Source: Anaerolineales bacterium (lineage in GTDB: Bacteria; Chloroflexota; Anaerolineae; Anaerolineales; UBA11858). From it: DNA of 38,346 nt. The notes under the pieces are model-generated. The model did no database searches. It saw only the letters and a program-made list of their open reading frames with translations, and was not told the origin of the DNA. The stretch is from assembly GCA_021108255.1 (NCBI GenBank), contig JAIORG010000254.1, positions 1-38,346 of the forward strand, read 5' to 3'. The translations under genes were made by a program, and so were the position numbers. The first letter of the stretch is position 1. Each line of letters opens with the position of its first letter. Of the stretch, positions 8,523 to 34,579 are shown piece after piece.

Positions 8523-11408
8523 CTAATCCCTTGCAACCTCAAAGATATATATTAATTCGCTCTGATTGTTCGCATGATCCTCGGCCACAATCCGTAATTC
8601 AATATCTCCCGGAGTCATCTCCCAAAGTAAAACAAAGGGTGGCGCTTCTCTGCTCGAAACCTTGTAAGAATTAATGTAGAAAACAACCTCTTGGATTTCA
8701 TTGTTATTCTCAAAAACTGCCTCAAAGAGCAGTTCCTTTCCTTCTTCAAAAAGAATTGTCTCTCCATCCAGGTCGGATATTAAACCTATCTCCGGAGGAG
8801 TATTGTCCACTGAAACTACCAGGGAGACCTTTTCAATTTGCTGCTGCTCCCCCACCAGAACCAGCTGCAGGGCATAAAGTCCATCCTCAAGATTATCTGT
8901 CTCCCAGATCCCTAATCTTTTCCCTGTGGATGGAGAGAGGATATCTTCTCCAATCTGGAGCCAGGAAGTGGGGTTCATACCTTTTCCGTACTGAAGCCTG
9001 GCAGAATAAAAACCATCTTCCGGGATCGCTCCGATGATCCGCACATCTCCATGAACAAAAGAAAAATTATCCGGATATGAGATCAAAAATCCTTCCCGAG
9101 CCTCCGGAATTTCCAGATCGTATACAACAGGAGGTATTAGTACTCCAGTTTGTTCCGCCCAACCTTCCGCTCCCAGGGGGATGGCGAGGTAAACTTTCTT
9201 TTCTATCTGCTCAGCAGGAGTAAATACTGAGGCGAGTAAACCTGTCTCACGATTAACTTCCAAAACTCTATAGAGTGTGTCTGCTTGTTGGGGTTCATTT
9301 CCTTGCAAAAATATTTCTCTGAGAACTTTTGGACAAAATTCAGTGGGCAGCAGACCCGAAGGATAACACACATCAAGTGTAGCCAACCCGTCCGGTCTCT
9401 GCCAATCCTCAACAGCGAGATCTCTTGCAGTATACTGCGTGATCGCCCTCCATAAACCGGAAGTAATCTGTTGAAAATCGGATTGGGAAAGGATTCCTTC
9501 CTCTTCAAAACTGCCAGCCCAGACGGTTGTTACTACCTGGGGAGTATAACCAACAACCCAACCTGATAAGGAATTATTAACATTCCCAACCTTTATTCCT
9601 GCAGGCCGTCCGATAAGAAACGCGTCATTTTCTTTGGTGTTGGATCGGGCATTCTCATCACTGAGGATATGATTTATCAGAAAAGTCAGTTGTTCACTGA
9701 TAACCATTTTCTCAATTTGTGATTTTTGATCCATCCACACCACGCCAAAAGAATCTTCGATCCTCACTACTGCGGCGGGACGAACCCTGAGACTAGAGTT
9801 CCCCTCAGGCTTACCCCGCAACACACCCTGATTCGCAAATACACCATAACCCTGGGCAATGTCAATCATCTCTAGCCTGGTACTACCTGGGAAATAAGTA
9901 CACTCCTGGCAGCTCTCAACAGGAATAGAAAACCCAAATAAAGTCATCGTATTTTCTACTTGAAGATATCCATGAGAATCCCACAACTGCTTTGCGGGTG
10001 ATAAGTAATCATTCACTAAGGCGGACCGCATACTTGCCGGACCAAGATAATCAACTTGCCCTTCAACTCCCGGGTGCAATTCTTCACTAGAGAAGACTTC
10101 TTCAGAGAGAGGAATGTCCCAAACTAAGGAAGCGGGGTTGAAACCTTGCCTGAACGAATTTAAGTAAACAAAAGGGGTAATAAGAGATCCTGGAAGTTTG
10201 GGTTCAAACATTCTACCGTAACCAATCTGATTCGATGTCTCCGCCATGGCCAGAATTTGTCCCCCCCGGGGATCCAGAAGTACAAGGTCGATTTCAAACT
10301 CATCATCAGTTTCTAATACCGGCCCTGAATACTTTGGCAGCAGCCGGGATGCTTGACAATTTTCATCCAGTTGGGGGTCTTCTCCATAAACCCTTTTCAG
10401 CATGATATTAGATGTACATTCCAGTTCACTTTGAAGATCGCTATCAAGGGAGGATATAATTTTGAATCCTCCCCTTAACAACCGCTCAAGGGGTATGATT
10501 CCACCGGCTTCCTCCAGGATATATTCTACGTAAGCCGGTATTGGGGGGTTTATCGCCAAACCCTGGTCGGCATAAATAAGCTCTTTTCGTTCAGCCCTGT
10601 CTGCATCTTGCTTAGAAATTTGTTCTCCAGATACCATCTCCTCCAACACAATTTCCTGATTTTCTTTGGCGGCAGTTGGCGCATCATATGGATTTAAGGA
10701 GGGATATTTTGCCACGGCGGCAAGCAAGGCAGACTCTGCCAGATCCAAGTTTTCAACTGATTTTCCGAAATAAAACAAGGCAGACTGATTAACGCCATAT
10801 ATTTGATTTCCATAATAGGCGCTGTTTAAATACCATTCCAATACTTTTTCCCGCCCATACATGGCAACGATCTGGTCTGCCAACAAATTGATTCGGACCT
10901 GCCGGTAAGGATGATCGATTTCATCCCATAATAAAAGGTCTCTGACGAGTTTTTGCGGAATTGGATCCGGCCGGTTATTGAATAAATTGCTCAGGAAATT
11001 GTCAGGGTTTAGAAAATAATCCGGATCCGTGGCTGCCAGGGTAGCTGCCACCATGACTTCGGGGATATCCGAGTAAAAAATAGTGTTGCCGTCAGTTAGC
11101 CTAATATTCTGCCGGTAGTCAATTGCAGGGTTCTCAAAACGCCATAAAACAGTTTCCCCGTTTTGATCATAGATTCTTGTGGGTTCCAGGAGAGATCCTC
11201 TTGGAGCGTCCAGCAAACTTGCCAGCATATCAGGAGACGGCAAGTCCTCCGTAACAACAGAATAGCGAGATACTAATACAAAAACCAGTGTAGTTGATGC
11301 CAAACTGAGGAAAACAGTTATCAATAAACCGATCGTTCCCAGTGGATTGGATCGATCTTCTCTGCGCTTATTATTCCTGAACCGCACGATATGCGATTGA
11401 ATATCCAT
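8523..11408 (-). CDS. Class A penicillin-binding-protein-like membrane protein, both active sites degenerate
   Basis: Overall architecture is that of a bifunctional class A PBP: one N-terminal TM helix (about residues 25-50), a GT51-like domain (about 60-300), a transpeptidase-like domain (about 370-660) and C-terminal Ig-like extracytoplasmic parts to 961. The fold is recognisable (LEWYLNSAYYGNQIYGV, LAESALLAA, GQILAMAE, GYGVFANQG, GYTP...VWAG), but the catalytic residues are not there. The GT motif EDxxF reads TDPDY (Thr127), GGSTITQQ is lost, and RKxxE reads RQVRI (Ile173). The transpeptidase SxxK reads SLIT (Ser408, Thr411), SxN reads DYL (467-469) and KTG reads KVG (606-608). It is probably a structural or regulatory pseudoenzyme. 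An upstream TTG at 11435 would add nine residues; the ATG at 11408 was preferred, though neither has a good ribosome binding site. Confidence 0.85.
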   Translation of the reverse strand: MDIQSHIVRFRNNKRREDRSNPLGTIGLLITVFLSLASTTLVFVLVSRYSVVTEDLPSPDMLASLLDAPRGSLLEPTRIYDQNGETVLWRFENPAIDYRQNIRLTDGNTIFYSDIPEVMVAATLAATDPDYFLNPDNFLSNLFNNRPDPIPQKLVRDLLLWDEIDHPYRQVRINLLADQIVAMYGREKVLEWYLNSAYYGNQIYGVNQSALFYFGKSVENLDLAESALLAAVAKYPSLNPYDAPTAAKENQEIVLEEMVSGEQISKQDADRAERKELIYADQGLAINPPIPAYVEYILEEAGGIIPLERLLRGGFKIISSLDSDLQSELECTSNIMLKRVYGEDPQLDENCQASRLLPKYSGPVLETDDEFEIDLVLLDPRGGQILAMAETSNQIGYGRMFEPKLPGSLITPFVYLNSFRQGFNPASLVWDIPLSEEVFSSEELHPGVEGQVDYLGPASMRSALVNDYLSPAKQLWDSHGYLQVENTMTLFGFSIPVESCQECTYFPGSTRLEMIDIAQGYGVFANQGVLRGKPEGNSSLRVRPAAVVRIEDSFGVVWMDQKSQIEKMVISEQLTFLINHILSDENARSNTKENDAFLIGRPAGIKVGNVNNSLSGWVVGYTPQVVTTVWAGSFEEEGILSQSDFQQITSGLWRAITQYTARDLAVEDWQRPDGLATLDVCYPSGLLPTEFCPKVLREIFLQGNEPQQADTLYRVLEVNRETGLLASVFTPAEQIEKKVYLAIPLGAEGWAEQTGVLIPPVVYDLEIPEAREGFLISYPDNFSFVHGDVRIIGAIPEDGFYSARLQYGKGMNPTSWLQIGEDILSPSTGKRLGIWETDNLEDGLYALQLVLVGEQQQIEKVSLVVSVDNTPPEIGLISDLDGETILFEEGKELLFEAVFENNNEIQEVVFYINSYKVSSREAPPFVLLWEMTPGDIELRIVAEDHANNQSELIYIFEVARD

Positions 11409-13289: not shown

Positions 13290-13817
13290 TTATTTTCTTA
13301 GCTGATAGAACACATATGAAGTGATGATAATAGAGTAAAAAAGATACCAGATCAGTGAATAAAATCCCCCACTGGCTGCAAAACCCACCTCTCGTATGTA
13401 GGGAACGGTCCGAATAAACCAGGTAATTATCGGGGGAAGGCTGAAAACAAAAGCGGTGATAATCATTACATTTTTCAACAGGGGAGATCGACGATTATTG
13501 ATGGCTTTCTTGACCACCCAAATAGCTAAGAACCCGGCTCCCATGGCAATTAAAAACGAATAAAAACCCAGGAAAAGAGACAGCTGGCTGCCTAAAAAGG
13601 AAATCACTCCTGTAATGGCAAAGGCAATAATATAGTCAAACACCTTGGCTGTGATAAATATCTTCTGCTGAGAGCGAATGCATTCCGGACAGCGGTATCC
13701 TGTCGGTGTACGCTTGGCGCATTTTATGCAGATTGGACGGTTACATTTATTACACCGCAACTGAGTTTCGCGTTTTGGATGAAACGTACAAGTAAGAGGA
13801 GCATTTAAATCAGACAT
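13290..13817 (-). CDS. B-box-type zinc-finger membrane protein, unknown function
   Basis: A 175-residue protein with an N-terminal cytoplasmic zinc-binding region followed by four likely TM helices. The metal ligands are visible as Cys10-x2-His13, Cys22-x2-Cys25, Cys30-x2-Cys33 and Cys43-x2-Cys46, a B-box-like pattern able to bind two zinc ions. Hydrophobic segments lie around 60-80, 83-105, 117-138 and 150-172. The start ATG overlaps the end of nadK by eight bases and the stop is one base from recN, so it is embedded in a tightly coupled nadK-recN unit. Bacterial B-box proteins joined to membrane domains (often rhomboid proteases) are known, but no catalytic Ser/His pair is evident here. Function not known. 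Confidence 0.8.
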   Translation of the reverse strand: MSDLNAPLTCTFHPKRETQLRCNKCNRPICIKCAKRTPTGYRCPECIRSQQKIFITAKVFDYIIAFAITGVISFLGSQLSLFLGFYSFLIAMGAGFLAIWVVKKAINNRRSPLLKNVMIITAFVFSLPPIITWFIRTVPYIREVGFAASGGFYSLIWYLFYSIIITSYVFYQLRK

Positions 13818-22813: not shown

Positions 22814-23336
22814 AACCTGGATTCTGCTGGGTACTGAACTCGATCTAGAACAGCATCGTGAGCTTCAAGTTCATCTGAAGCAGTGCTCTCAATGTCAATC
22901 CCTGTACCAGGCAACCCATCAAATCGCGCATCTTTTCAAGACAAGCCCGGTTCCTGAACCCAGCCCTGGATTCAGTACGCGCTGTATGACCAGGATCGAA
23001 AAGGTTGAGACCAGAAAAAGCCAGTTTATATTAGGAATGACTCTCAGTGTTATTTCTCTAGCAACCCTGCTGCTGCTCTCAAGCGTTGGCTTACAAATCA
23101 GGGCAGGCATGGCACAATTTCCGCAATTAATGCTGGAAATGATTACTTTAGTCGCTAAATGGATAGTTTTCCTGAATCAATTAAGTCATATCGTCTCGCC
23201 CTTAATCAGGGTTAGCCTGAAATTAATTTCACCGATCTGGTTGATTACTCTTGGTTTCAGCCTGAGCGGGATTACCATTGCCTGGATGATTCCATTTTTC
23301 AAATCAAGGACAATTCAGAGGGAGCTGCACTCATGA
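22794..23336 (+). CDS. Zinc-binding anti-sigma factor, membrane-bound
   Basis: A 180-residue anti-sigma factor with an N-terminal zinc-binding domain carrying the ZAS-type ligands His27-x3-Cys31-x2-Cys34. A TM segment follows at about 79-102 and further hydrophobic stretches at about 112-175, so it is likely multi-spanning. It would hold the upstream sigma factor inactive at the membrane. The ATG at 22794 has an AAAGGA site and is preferred over the in-frame TTG at 22788. The gene overlaps the sigma gene and its TGA stop overlaps the next ATG (ATGA), indicating coupling. Confidence 0.85.
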   Translation: MKHQQYETWILLGTELDLEQHRELQVHLKQCSQCQSLYQATHQIAHLFKTSPVPEPSPGFSTRCMTRIEKVETRKSQFILGMTLSVISLATLLLLSSVGLQIRAGMAQFPQLMLEMITLVAKWIVFLNQLSHIVSPLIRVSLKLISPIWLITLGFSLSGITIAWMIPFFKSRTIQRELHS

Positions 23337-24496
23337 AAAACATTACCCGATTCGTCTTATTAATACTGCTCATTGCTGCAGTGATTATCCCCACAACAGT
23401 TTCTGCTTCCGGATTCTCGGATGATAAAGTCGTTTTTGGGGGGAATTTTACCCTGGGATCAGGCGAGGTATTAAACGGAGACCTGGTTGTACTTGGGGGC
23501 AACATTGTCTTAGAAACATCCTCAACGATCAATGGAGATACGGTTGTCCTGGGTGGCAATGTATCATCAGATGGGACTATTAATGGCAATCTGGTTGCCA
23601 TGGGCGGAATCGTTGAATTCCTGGATCAGGCTCAAGTCAATGGCGATCTCATTGTACTCGGCAGCAGTTATGAACAGGCAGAAGGTGCTGTCATCAGCGG
23701 GAACATCATAACAGAAGAAAATATTCCCTTTGAATTCAATCTTCCAGACAGGCTTTCCTTATTTGAGGGGAATTTCCCTGCTTCCCAACTCCAGCAGCTG
23801 CTGTTAGTCTCTGCCCCCTGGTTCTTATTCCGGATTTTAATCTGGACCGGATTGGCCATTCTGATGACTCTGTTTGTCAAGGATCAGGCAGCTGTTATTA
23901 ACCGGGCTGCATTTGGTCAACCTTTCATGTCATTCGTGGTTGGCTTAGGCGTGATCATAGTTACCCCCTTGGTCCTGATCGCATTGATCATAACTATCTT
24001 ACTCAGTCCAGTCAGTTTGCTCGGCATCATAGCCTTATTTGCGGCTTGGGTAGTCGGATTGGTTGCCCTGAGCCTTGAAATCGGAAGGAAATTGGCAGAA
24101 GCATCAAATCAATCCTGGCCTGCCCCTGTTATGGCTGGACTGGGAATGTTCATCCTCACTCTTATCCTTAATGGGTTCAACCAGATTGTGCCTTGTTTCG
24201 GATTGGTTCCAAAATTTGTACTGGGCTTGTGGGTGATGGGCGCTGTATTCCTTACTCGATTCGGCACGCGGGAATATCCAGAGACTGACACTATTGAACA
24301 TGCTGAACCTGTCCCCACTCAGCTTCCGCCAGCATTTGCTCCTGAAGAAAAACCTGAACCGGTTGTAGTTAATGCCACCAAAGCGGCAAGGGAACTTGCC
24401 GAAACAGAAAATCTTGACCTGGGTAAAATCAAAGGCACAGGAGCTGAAGGGAAAATCATTTTGAATGATGTAAGAAAGGCTCTGAAAGATCAATAG
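23333..24496 (+). CDS. Membrane polymer-forming (bactofilin-like) protein with C-terminal E3-binding domain
   Basis: A 387-residue protein in three parts. A signal peptide (1-25) leads to a repeated beta segment (about 33-125) where the unit NGDLVVLGGNV recurs about four times, typical of polymer-forming/bactofilin-like helices. Next come about five TM segments (158-308). The cytoplasmic C-terminus (347-384) matches the peripheral-subunit-binding (E3-binding) domain of 2-oxoacid dehydrogenase E2 proteins: ATKAARELAE, then IKGTGAEGKI and DVRKAL. No lipoyl or acyltransferase domain is present. The start overlaps the anti-sigma stop by four bases, so it is the third gene of the ECF operon and may be the sensor or effector at the envelope. 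Role unproven. Confidence 0.8.
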   Translation: MKNITRFVLLILLIAAVIIPTTVSASGFSDDKVVFGGNFTLGSGEVLNGDLVVLGGNIVLETSSTINGDTVVLGGNVSSDGTINGNLVAMGGIVEFLDQAQVNGDLIVLGSSYEQAEGAVISGNIITEENIPFEFNLPDRLSLFEGNFPASQLQQLLLVSAPWFLFRILIWTGLAILMTLFVKDQAAVINRAAFGQPFMSFVVGLGVIIVTPLVLIALIITILLSPVSLLGIIALFAAWVVGLVALSLEIGRKLAEASNQSWPAPVMAGLGMFILTLILNGFNQIVPCFGLVPKFVLGLWVMGAVFLTRFGTREYPETDTIEHAEPVPTQLPPAFAPEEKPEPVVVNATKAARELAETENLDLGKIKGTGAEGKIILNDVRKALKDQ

Positions 24497-33508: not shown

Positions 33509-34579
33509 CTAGGGCGGCGGCAGTACAAACCAGGGATTGACAAATCCACCCTGGTACCGCACCTCAAAGTGTAAGTGCGCTCCAGTAGAATTACCGGTGC
33601 TCCCACCCAAACCGATCGTTTGGCCCTGAACTACGCTCCGCCCGCAAGATGAGGTTGCAGCGTTGAGGTGAGCATAAAGGGTTTGGTATCCATTCCCGTG
33701 ATCAATTATTATCACATTCCCATATCCACCGGTTGACCAACCCGAGAACACTACCACTCCGGAATCGGATGCCGAAACCGGTTCTCCCACTACTAATCCA
33801 ATATCAATTGCCAGGTGGCCAGACCAGTAATCATTGCCCGAAAGCGTATGACCAAGAGTAGGCCAGATGAAACCACCAGTTCCATACAGTCCCTCAAAAG
33901 GTCCACTGCAGGCACCTTCTCCATACACACCAGCGGATACTCCGGCTGCCCCTCTGGCAATCGTGGGAAGAATCCACTGTTGAAATTTCCGCTGTCCTCC
34001 TGGTATCATCACCAAATTACCAGGTTTAAACTCCGGGTTCACCAAATCCAGTTCGTTCCCTATCCAATTTAAAATTAATTCTGGATCGGTTTTAAATTTT
34101 ATTGCCACTGTTTCAACATCATCCCCTTCCTGCCACTCATAAATAATTCCATCCATTGGCGGTATCACCAGCTCCATACCCGGTGCTAAAGAATGGGGAT
34201 TATCCTGGAGTACATCATAATTTGACCAGAGGATTGTTTCCGGTTCCAGGCTATACCGCGCCGCAATCCCAAATACAGAATCATTAAACTCAACCAGGTA
34301 GTTGAGAGGCTTGATATTTTCTCTCGTCGGAATCTCGGTATTCACCAATGCTGCTCGCCGAATCGATGTCTTCTGGTTAAACCGCACAAAATCAGGAATC
34401 CTGATTGACGCCGGATCCTGATTTGTATCGGTGGAAGCAAGGGAAACTTGGGGCTGGTCTCCAGAGACAAATTGTGCCGGGCTGAAGTTATGCCAGGCAA
34501 GATAAGCTGCTCCAGAGAGAAGGCTGATGGCAATTATCCAGAGAGACCAGGAAAGAAGCAGTTCTCTTTTACTATTCAC
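33509..34579 (-). CDS. LysM and M23 peptidase domain protein
   Basis: A 356-residue envelope protein: N-terminal TM or signal anchor (about 10-30), LysM-like modules at about 92-140 and 144-193, and a LytM/M23 metallopeptidase domain from about 240. The zinc ligands are intact: His255 and Asp259 in GHLAID, His304 in YAHL, and His335/His337 in HLHFE. It should cleave peptidoglycan cross-bridges or act in their remodelling. The start is GTG at 34579 with a weak site, 11 bases after the rho stop, so it is probably co-transcribed with rho. The intact hydrolase contrasts with the degenerate PBP-like protein elsewhere in the window. Confidence 0.9.
   Translation of the reverse strand: MNSKRELLLSWSLWIIAISLLSGAAYLAWHNFSPAQFVSGDQPQVSLASTDTNQDPASIRIPDFVRFNQKTSIRRAALVNTEIPTRENIKPLNYLVEFNDSVFGIAARYSLEPETILWSNYDVLQDNPHSLAPGMELVIPPMDGIIYEWQEGDDVETVAIKFKTDPELILNWIGNELDLVNPEFKPGNLVMIPGGQRKFQQWILPTIARGAAGVSAGVYGEGACSGPFEGLYGTGGFIWPTLGHTLSGNDYWSGHLAIDIGLVVGEPVSASDSGVVVFSGWSTGGYGNVIIIDHGNGYQTLYAHLNAATSSCGRSVVQGQTIGLGGSTGNSTGAHLHFEVRYQGGFVNPWFVLPPP

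Follow-up and report, generated by a model that had tools for sequence, protein, structure and literature searches.

An order-wide class A penicillin-binding protein homologue of Anaerolineales that has lost both active sites

The window analyzed here, a stretch of 38,346 nucleotides from an Anaerolineales bacterium, carries on its minus strand a gene at positions 8523 to 11408 for a protein of 961 amino acids. The Met codon lies at 11408 and the stop codon at 8523-8525. Translation of the minus strand gave no internal stop, and the frame of 961 residues that had been called intact in a first-pass annotation, where no strand was given, is indeed one uninterrupted open reading frame. All parts of the protein are likewise encoded on the minus strand. 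A short cytoplasmic N-terminus precedes a hydrophobic stretch that forms the N-terminal membrane helix (residues 31-53; 11250-11318). Next comes a degenerate GT51 domain (residues ~116-262; 10623-11063), assigned by Pfam PF00912 at residues 150-258 and by Foldseek matches to class A penicillin-binding proteins (PBPs). A degenerate transpeptidase domain follows (residues ~371-660; 9429-10298), which is recognized by Foldseek matches and lies below the PF00905 cut-off. The C-terminal part consists of a post-transpeptidase segment with the invariant cysteines C681 and C692 (residues 661-770; 9099-9428) and two Ig-like domains (residues 771-870; 8799-9098 and residues 871-961; 8526-8798). The second of these has a weak Big_7 match of 13.4 bits, below the Pfam cut-off, and is missing from several orthologues of one family, where the match stops near residue 867. 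A domain related to the first Ig-like domain (residues 772-868) was also seen in a 229-residue membrane protein (L120:2779-3468, G000:C8), and short proteins resembling it are present in most genomes of the source family.

Family profiles recognized the protein in part. Transgly (PF00912) scored 79.4 bits against a cut-off of 27, with only model positions 69-177 matched. Transpeptidase (PF00905) reached 13.5 bits, under its cut-off of 22.1, and the protein was missing from the PF00905 match list in a profile search of its own genome. The NCBIfam model TIGR02074 (PBP_1a_fam) gave 227.6 bits over residues 151-660 and its cut-off is 508.75.

The catalytic motifs were located by alignment to the intact class A PBP of the source genome (L001), which served as the motif reference. 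In the GT51 domain the ED..F site reads TDPDY (residues 127-131; 11016-11030; clade consensus xDPxF(W)), with Thr127 in place of the catalytic Glu. The GGSTITQQ site has become RPDPIPQK (residues 146-153; 10950-10973) and the segment before it is shorter by about 11 residues than in intact orthologues. A new conserved segment, WDE(P), was found by column conservation among orthologues (residues 161-164; 10917-10928), and the RKxxE site reads RQVRI (residues 169-173; 10890-10904), Ile standing in place of Glu. In the transpeptidase domain, SxxK is replaced by SLIT (residues 408-411; 10176-10187), which loses the Lys and keeps the Ser/Thr. SxN is replaced by DYL (residues 467-469; 10002-10010), the Ser having become Asp467. 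KTG is replaced by KVG (residues 606-608; 9585-9593) with Lys606 kept. Thus all six motif changes listed at first pass do lie at aligned positions. The aligned sites hold no intact catalytic Glu or Lys, and some 11 residues are missing from the GT domain. Misalignment of the motifs was ruled out by the invariant neighbours G407, P412, W617, N195 and G200 and by the DSSP positions in a structural model.

This model was an AlphaFold prediction run with 60 orthologues (mean pLDDT 88.6, pTM 0.76). It contains an N-terminal helix at residues 22-53, GT-like and transpeptidase-like domains and a C-terminal beta region, and the degenerate transpeptidase domain shows a transpeptidase-like order of helices and strands. 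Foldseek against the PDB returned class A PBPs throughout, the best being S. aureus PBP2 (3dwk, E 2.8e-29). Modelling, which had been suggested as a check, therefore gave a class A PBP fold. As in active PBPs, the old SxxK sits at the start of a helix (407-420) and KVG on a strand (604-609). As a guess, Asp467 and Lys606 might form a salt bridge.

The Anaerolineales are a large group whose members live in soil, sediment and hot springs. Orthologues of the protein, termed pseudo-PBP in the following, are spread through much of this order of the Chloroflexota. In the source family they occur in 21 of 21 genomes with matching length and without internal stops, three being cut by contig ends. The named relatives come from Anaerolineales or Anaerolineae metagenome-assembled genomes and from cultured Anaerolineaceae (Longilinea arvoryzae, Anaerolinea thermolimosa, Levilinea saccharolytica, Ornatilinea apprima and Bellilinea caldifistulae), and the catalytic set is absent from all 80 named loci. 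By these relatives, the window very likely belongs to an Anaerolineales member that has not been cultured. Residues were counted in 100 distinct core orthologues and, for comparison, in 31 intact orthologues outside the clade. The SxxK Lys is lost in every core orthologue. The GT51 Glu of ED..F is lost in 99 of 100, and the SxN Ser is replaced by Asp (Asp467) in the same number, whereas all catalytic motifs, including this Glu, are intact in 31 of 31 orthologues outside the dead clade. Position 408 is Ser or Thr and the Asn of YLN is kept in all 100 core orthologues; the KTG Lys (Lys606) is kept in 98. Glu163 is present in 97, at a position where most intact orthologues have a gap, so that Asp467 and Glu163 are both new relative to the intact proteins. 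Further motifs fixed in the core clade are DPxFW, T(L/I)AQ(R/K)LV, (W/Y)(D/N)EP, RRALRER, PG(S/T)LLTP, ALANDYL and KxG, and the segment from ED to TITQQ measures 24-25 residues in the dead clade versus 35-36 in intact orthologues.

The alignment of homologues that had been proposed as a check thus found the altered residues fixed across the order, the RKxxE site excepted. Here the Glu is kept in 59 of 100 core orthologues, so its reported loss is correct for the source lineage and does not extend to the family as a whole. Similarly, the first-pass statement that every catalytic motif is changed holds for the changes themselves. Total erasure is slightly too strong, because Ser/Thr408, the KTG Lys and the YLN Asn are retained in the clade. 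A recent damaged allele was ruled out by the orthologues in all genomes of the family and by the fixed changes. Some near-complete genomes of the order possess only the intact L001-type PBP (for example genera g27 and g49 of family f13), hence the pseudo-PBP can be dispensed with over long periods of evolution. Families f8 (L208-L210, genus g12) and f13 (L207, g33) include very divergent pseudo-PBPs in which almost no cleft residues are left; these retain the post-transpeptidase cysteines and the C-terminal domain.

An orthologue with every motif intact occurs in five other families of the order (f3, f4, f9, f10 and f15), and many families of other orders likewise carry a fully intact one. We removed the catalytic columns, built a tree and rooted it with two paralogous PBP types. 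The dead clade (SH-aLRT 99) nests among intact orthologues and adjoins those of the same order. It lies on long branches and has evolved faster than the intact proteins. Judged from this tree, the pseudo-PBP descends from a catalytically intact PBP, which other families of the order and class still carry in intact form. Within the 21 genomes of the source family, no genome holds an intact orthologue and the pseudo-PBP together, which would be expected had the one given way to the other by descent.

Full-length PBPs with dead sites were also found outside the order: L074, L104-L106 and L262 in family f49, L257-L261 in f34 and L270 in f62. Family f49 has both intact and dead copies, and the intact L108 and L263 form a supported group with the dead L074 and L262. 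In L262 SYN is still present, and the SxxK Lys and the GT Glu are lost. A tree in which all f49 copies were held together had a likelihood above that of the free search. A single origin of all dead copies was not rejected (AU p 0.148). Since the dead f49 copies sit with intact copies of the same family, at least two losses of catalysis would be the better reading, although long branches obscure the exact number.

The whole frame of the pseudo-PBP is under purifying selection. By the Nei-Gojobori method, dN/dS was 0.09-0.15 for pseudo-PBP pairs compared to 0.03-0.12 for pairs of intact orthologues, with saturated dS in the widest pairs. Neutral decay is ruled out by these ratios. Together with the substitutions fixed across orthologues, they uphold the first-pass view that this is not simple decay, and a conserved pseudo-PBP is likewise supported, as the catalytic losses are common to the orthologues and the frame is under purifying selection. 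Constraint differs along the protein. From intact to dead sequences, the mean column entropy rose from 1.05 to 1.67 bits in the GT domain and from 1.03 to 1.85 bits in the transpeptidase domain, whereas it went from 1.50 to 1.47 bits in the post-transpeptidase segment and from 1.58 to 1.65 bits in the first Ig-like domain, a comparison that is only indicative because the intact and dead sets are unequal in size and were sampled differently. Constraint is thus, on this indication, relaxed in the GT and transpeptidase domains and not in the post-transpeptidase segment or the first Ig-like domain. This pattern points to the C-terminal half as what may now be the most important part of the protein.

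The source genome is a 2.98-Mb draft in 298 contigs with an estimated completeness of 94%. A second, intact class A PBP had been named as something to look for, and it was found at G000:C4 (L001), with EDSNF, GASTITQQ, RKLRE, SSIK, SYN and KTG. It is the genome's only intact class A PBP. Three class B PBPs with SxxK, SxN and KTG are encoded on C7, C36 and C41, and two SEDS proteins lie near the class B PBPs on C7 and C41. Across the order, nearly all genomes gave a strong Transgly match from an intact paralogue. Within the window, the M23 hydrolase described as intact at first pass was confirmed at 33509-34579, with a PF01551 match of 104.8 bits and LysM. With intact synthases and an M23/LysM hydrolase, peptidoglycan is made.

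In the source family and in family f14, recN precedes the pseudo-PBP gene, and nadK and ssb are also upstream; in the source family era lies on the other side. The gene of the cultured Anaerolineaceae comes after that for a TPR protein; another group has it behind a folP-like gene and a zinc-ribbon protein. No cell-wall gene was a steady neighbour in the three contexts compared across families, so the context does not name a partner, and an operon partner was rejected on these grounds. Other genes of the window were also inspected. A small protein between recN and nadK (13290-13817, minus strand) weakly matches a B-box zinc finger, seems to have membrane helices and stays beside recN in most syntenic loci. 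An unusual combination was seen in a 387-residue membrane protein (23333-24496, plus strand), whose N-terminal part is weakly bactofilin-like (PF04519, 19.9 bits, below the cut-off of 27.9) and whose C-terminal part is an E3-binding domain (PF02817, 29 bits).

As judged from its residues, the pseudo-PBP is unable to carry out either of the reactions in the way known for GT51 enzymes and serine transpeptidases. A scaffold, a regulator or a beta-lactam-blind wall component had been offered at first pass. Of these, a non-catalytic scaffold or regulator would fit best. We consider that the protein is probably a membrane-anchored, full-length pseudoenzyme with a class A PBP fold that serves peptidoglycan synthesis without catalysis, as a scaffold or as a regulator. 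Both active sites would have been lost in the ancestor of a large part of the Anaerolineales, and the gene kept. Anchored by its membrane helix, the protein would act outside the cell membrane, where the PBP-shaped body may dock onto partners in peptidoglycan synthesis. Such a partner might be the genome's one intact class A PBP, or the RodA/FtsW-class B PBP pairs might play this part. The contact under selection may be made by the strongly constrained part formed by the post-transpeptidase segment and the first Ig-like domain. Against such a role stand the gene neighbourhoods, which differ between families and hold no cell-wall gene, and the lack of the protein in some near-complete genomes of the order. 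Moreover, the joint retention of Ser/Thr408, Asp467 and Lys606 could point to a remodelled activity instead of pure scaffolding.

The main rival is a substrate sensor, which we hold to be possible and distinctly less probable. The old donor or acceptor clefts would then bind wall polymer, a lipid-linked precursor or a muropeptide, and report or buffer it without turnover. Conserved cleft residues agree with such a role, namely Asp128 (83 of 100), Phe131 and Asn195 (100 of 100) on the GT side and, on the transpeptidase side, Ser/Thr408, Asp467, Lys606 and Trp617 (100 of 100). However, the glycines, the second Gln and the following Lys of the GGSTITQQ region are replaced and about 11 GT residues are deleted. 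In active PBPs, the Asn of SxN and the Thr of KTG hold the peptide or beta-lactam carbonyl, and both are lost here.

More speculatively, and with little probability in our view, the core clade may have been rebuilt. New ligand-binding or catalytic sites would be formed by Ser/Thr408, Asp467 and Lys606 in the former transpeptidase cleft and, in the GT domain with its deletion, by the Glu163 segment, and an ancient wall synthase would have turned into a different envelope protein at least once in the Anaerolineae. In its strictly enzymatic form, with the three residues as a new catalytic set or Glu163 replacing the GT base, this idea appears improbable. The near-invariance of all four positions speaks for it, but Ser and Thr interchange freely at position 408, where either could cap a helix, and an adjacent general base is lacking, position 411 being Thr, Ser, Asp or Ala. 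Dead lineages of greater divergence (f2, f5, f12, f34 and f49) also lack the residue set.

Decay of a redundant PBP under relaxed selection, heading for loss, is very improbable. The long branches and faster evolution would suit it, as would the absence from some genera and the very divergent copies in f2, f12 and f8, but for the core clade it is refuted by the low dN/dS and by newly fixed residues, Asp467 among them, and the frame is full-length in almost all of the more than 100 orthologues. That the protein is still an active PBP, with catalytic residues elsewhere and misplaced by the alignment, is scarcely credible despite the kept overall fold and the RKxxE Glu in 59% of core orthologues, since the alignment is anchored by invariant neighbours and DSSP motif positions and the SxxK Lys is missing throughout the core clade.

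The preferred reading, a non-catalytic scaffold or regulator, can be set beside known proteins. Class A PBPs such as S. aureus PBP2 (3dwk) share the membrane anchor, the fold, and the GT51-like and transpeptidase-like domains in the same order; the pseudo-PBP differs in having lost both active sites and about 11 GT residues and in having two C-terminal Ig-like domains. Intact Anaerolineae orthologues (e.g. L083-L089 and L059-L073) align over the full length, including the post-transpeptidase and Ig-like parts, at 33-35% identity, and differ in keeping all catalytic motifs. Two precedents may serve as analogies of function. The degenerate LytM proteins EnvC, NlpD and ActS activate amidases without catalysis (PMC8360153). 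These are peptidoglycan pseudoenzymes kept for regulation, a likeness in the way of working only, as they have the M23 fold, are not homologous and act on known partner amidases. In B. subtilis, PBP2B has an essential structural role independent of catalysis (PMC5656894). A PBP can thus be needed for structure, although PBP2B belongs to class B, its natural enzyme is intact and its inactivity was engineered.

The pseudo-PBP family combines a known fold and a known ancestry with lost chemistry. Neither a conserved family of inactive class A PBPs nor PBPs of Anaerolineae were described in the open-access literature that we searched. Discussion of class A PBPs, which are targets of antibiotics, treats them as enzymes. 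Here, an order-wide lineage and at least one separate lineage keep the PBP body with dead sites, which indicates that this body has a job apart from catalysis. Since intact orthologues survive in sister families, comparison of dead and live proteins can locate the surfaces for such a non-catalytic job. For the Chloroflexota, annotation of PBPs by family name alone overstates the enzymatic repertoire.
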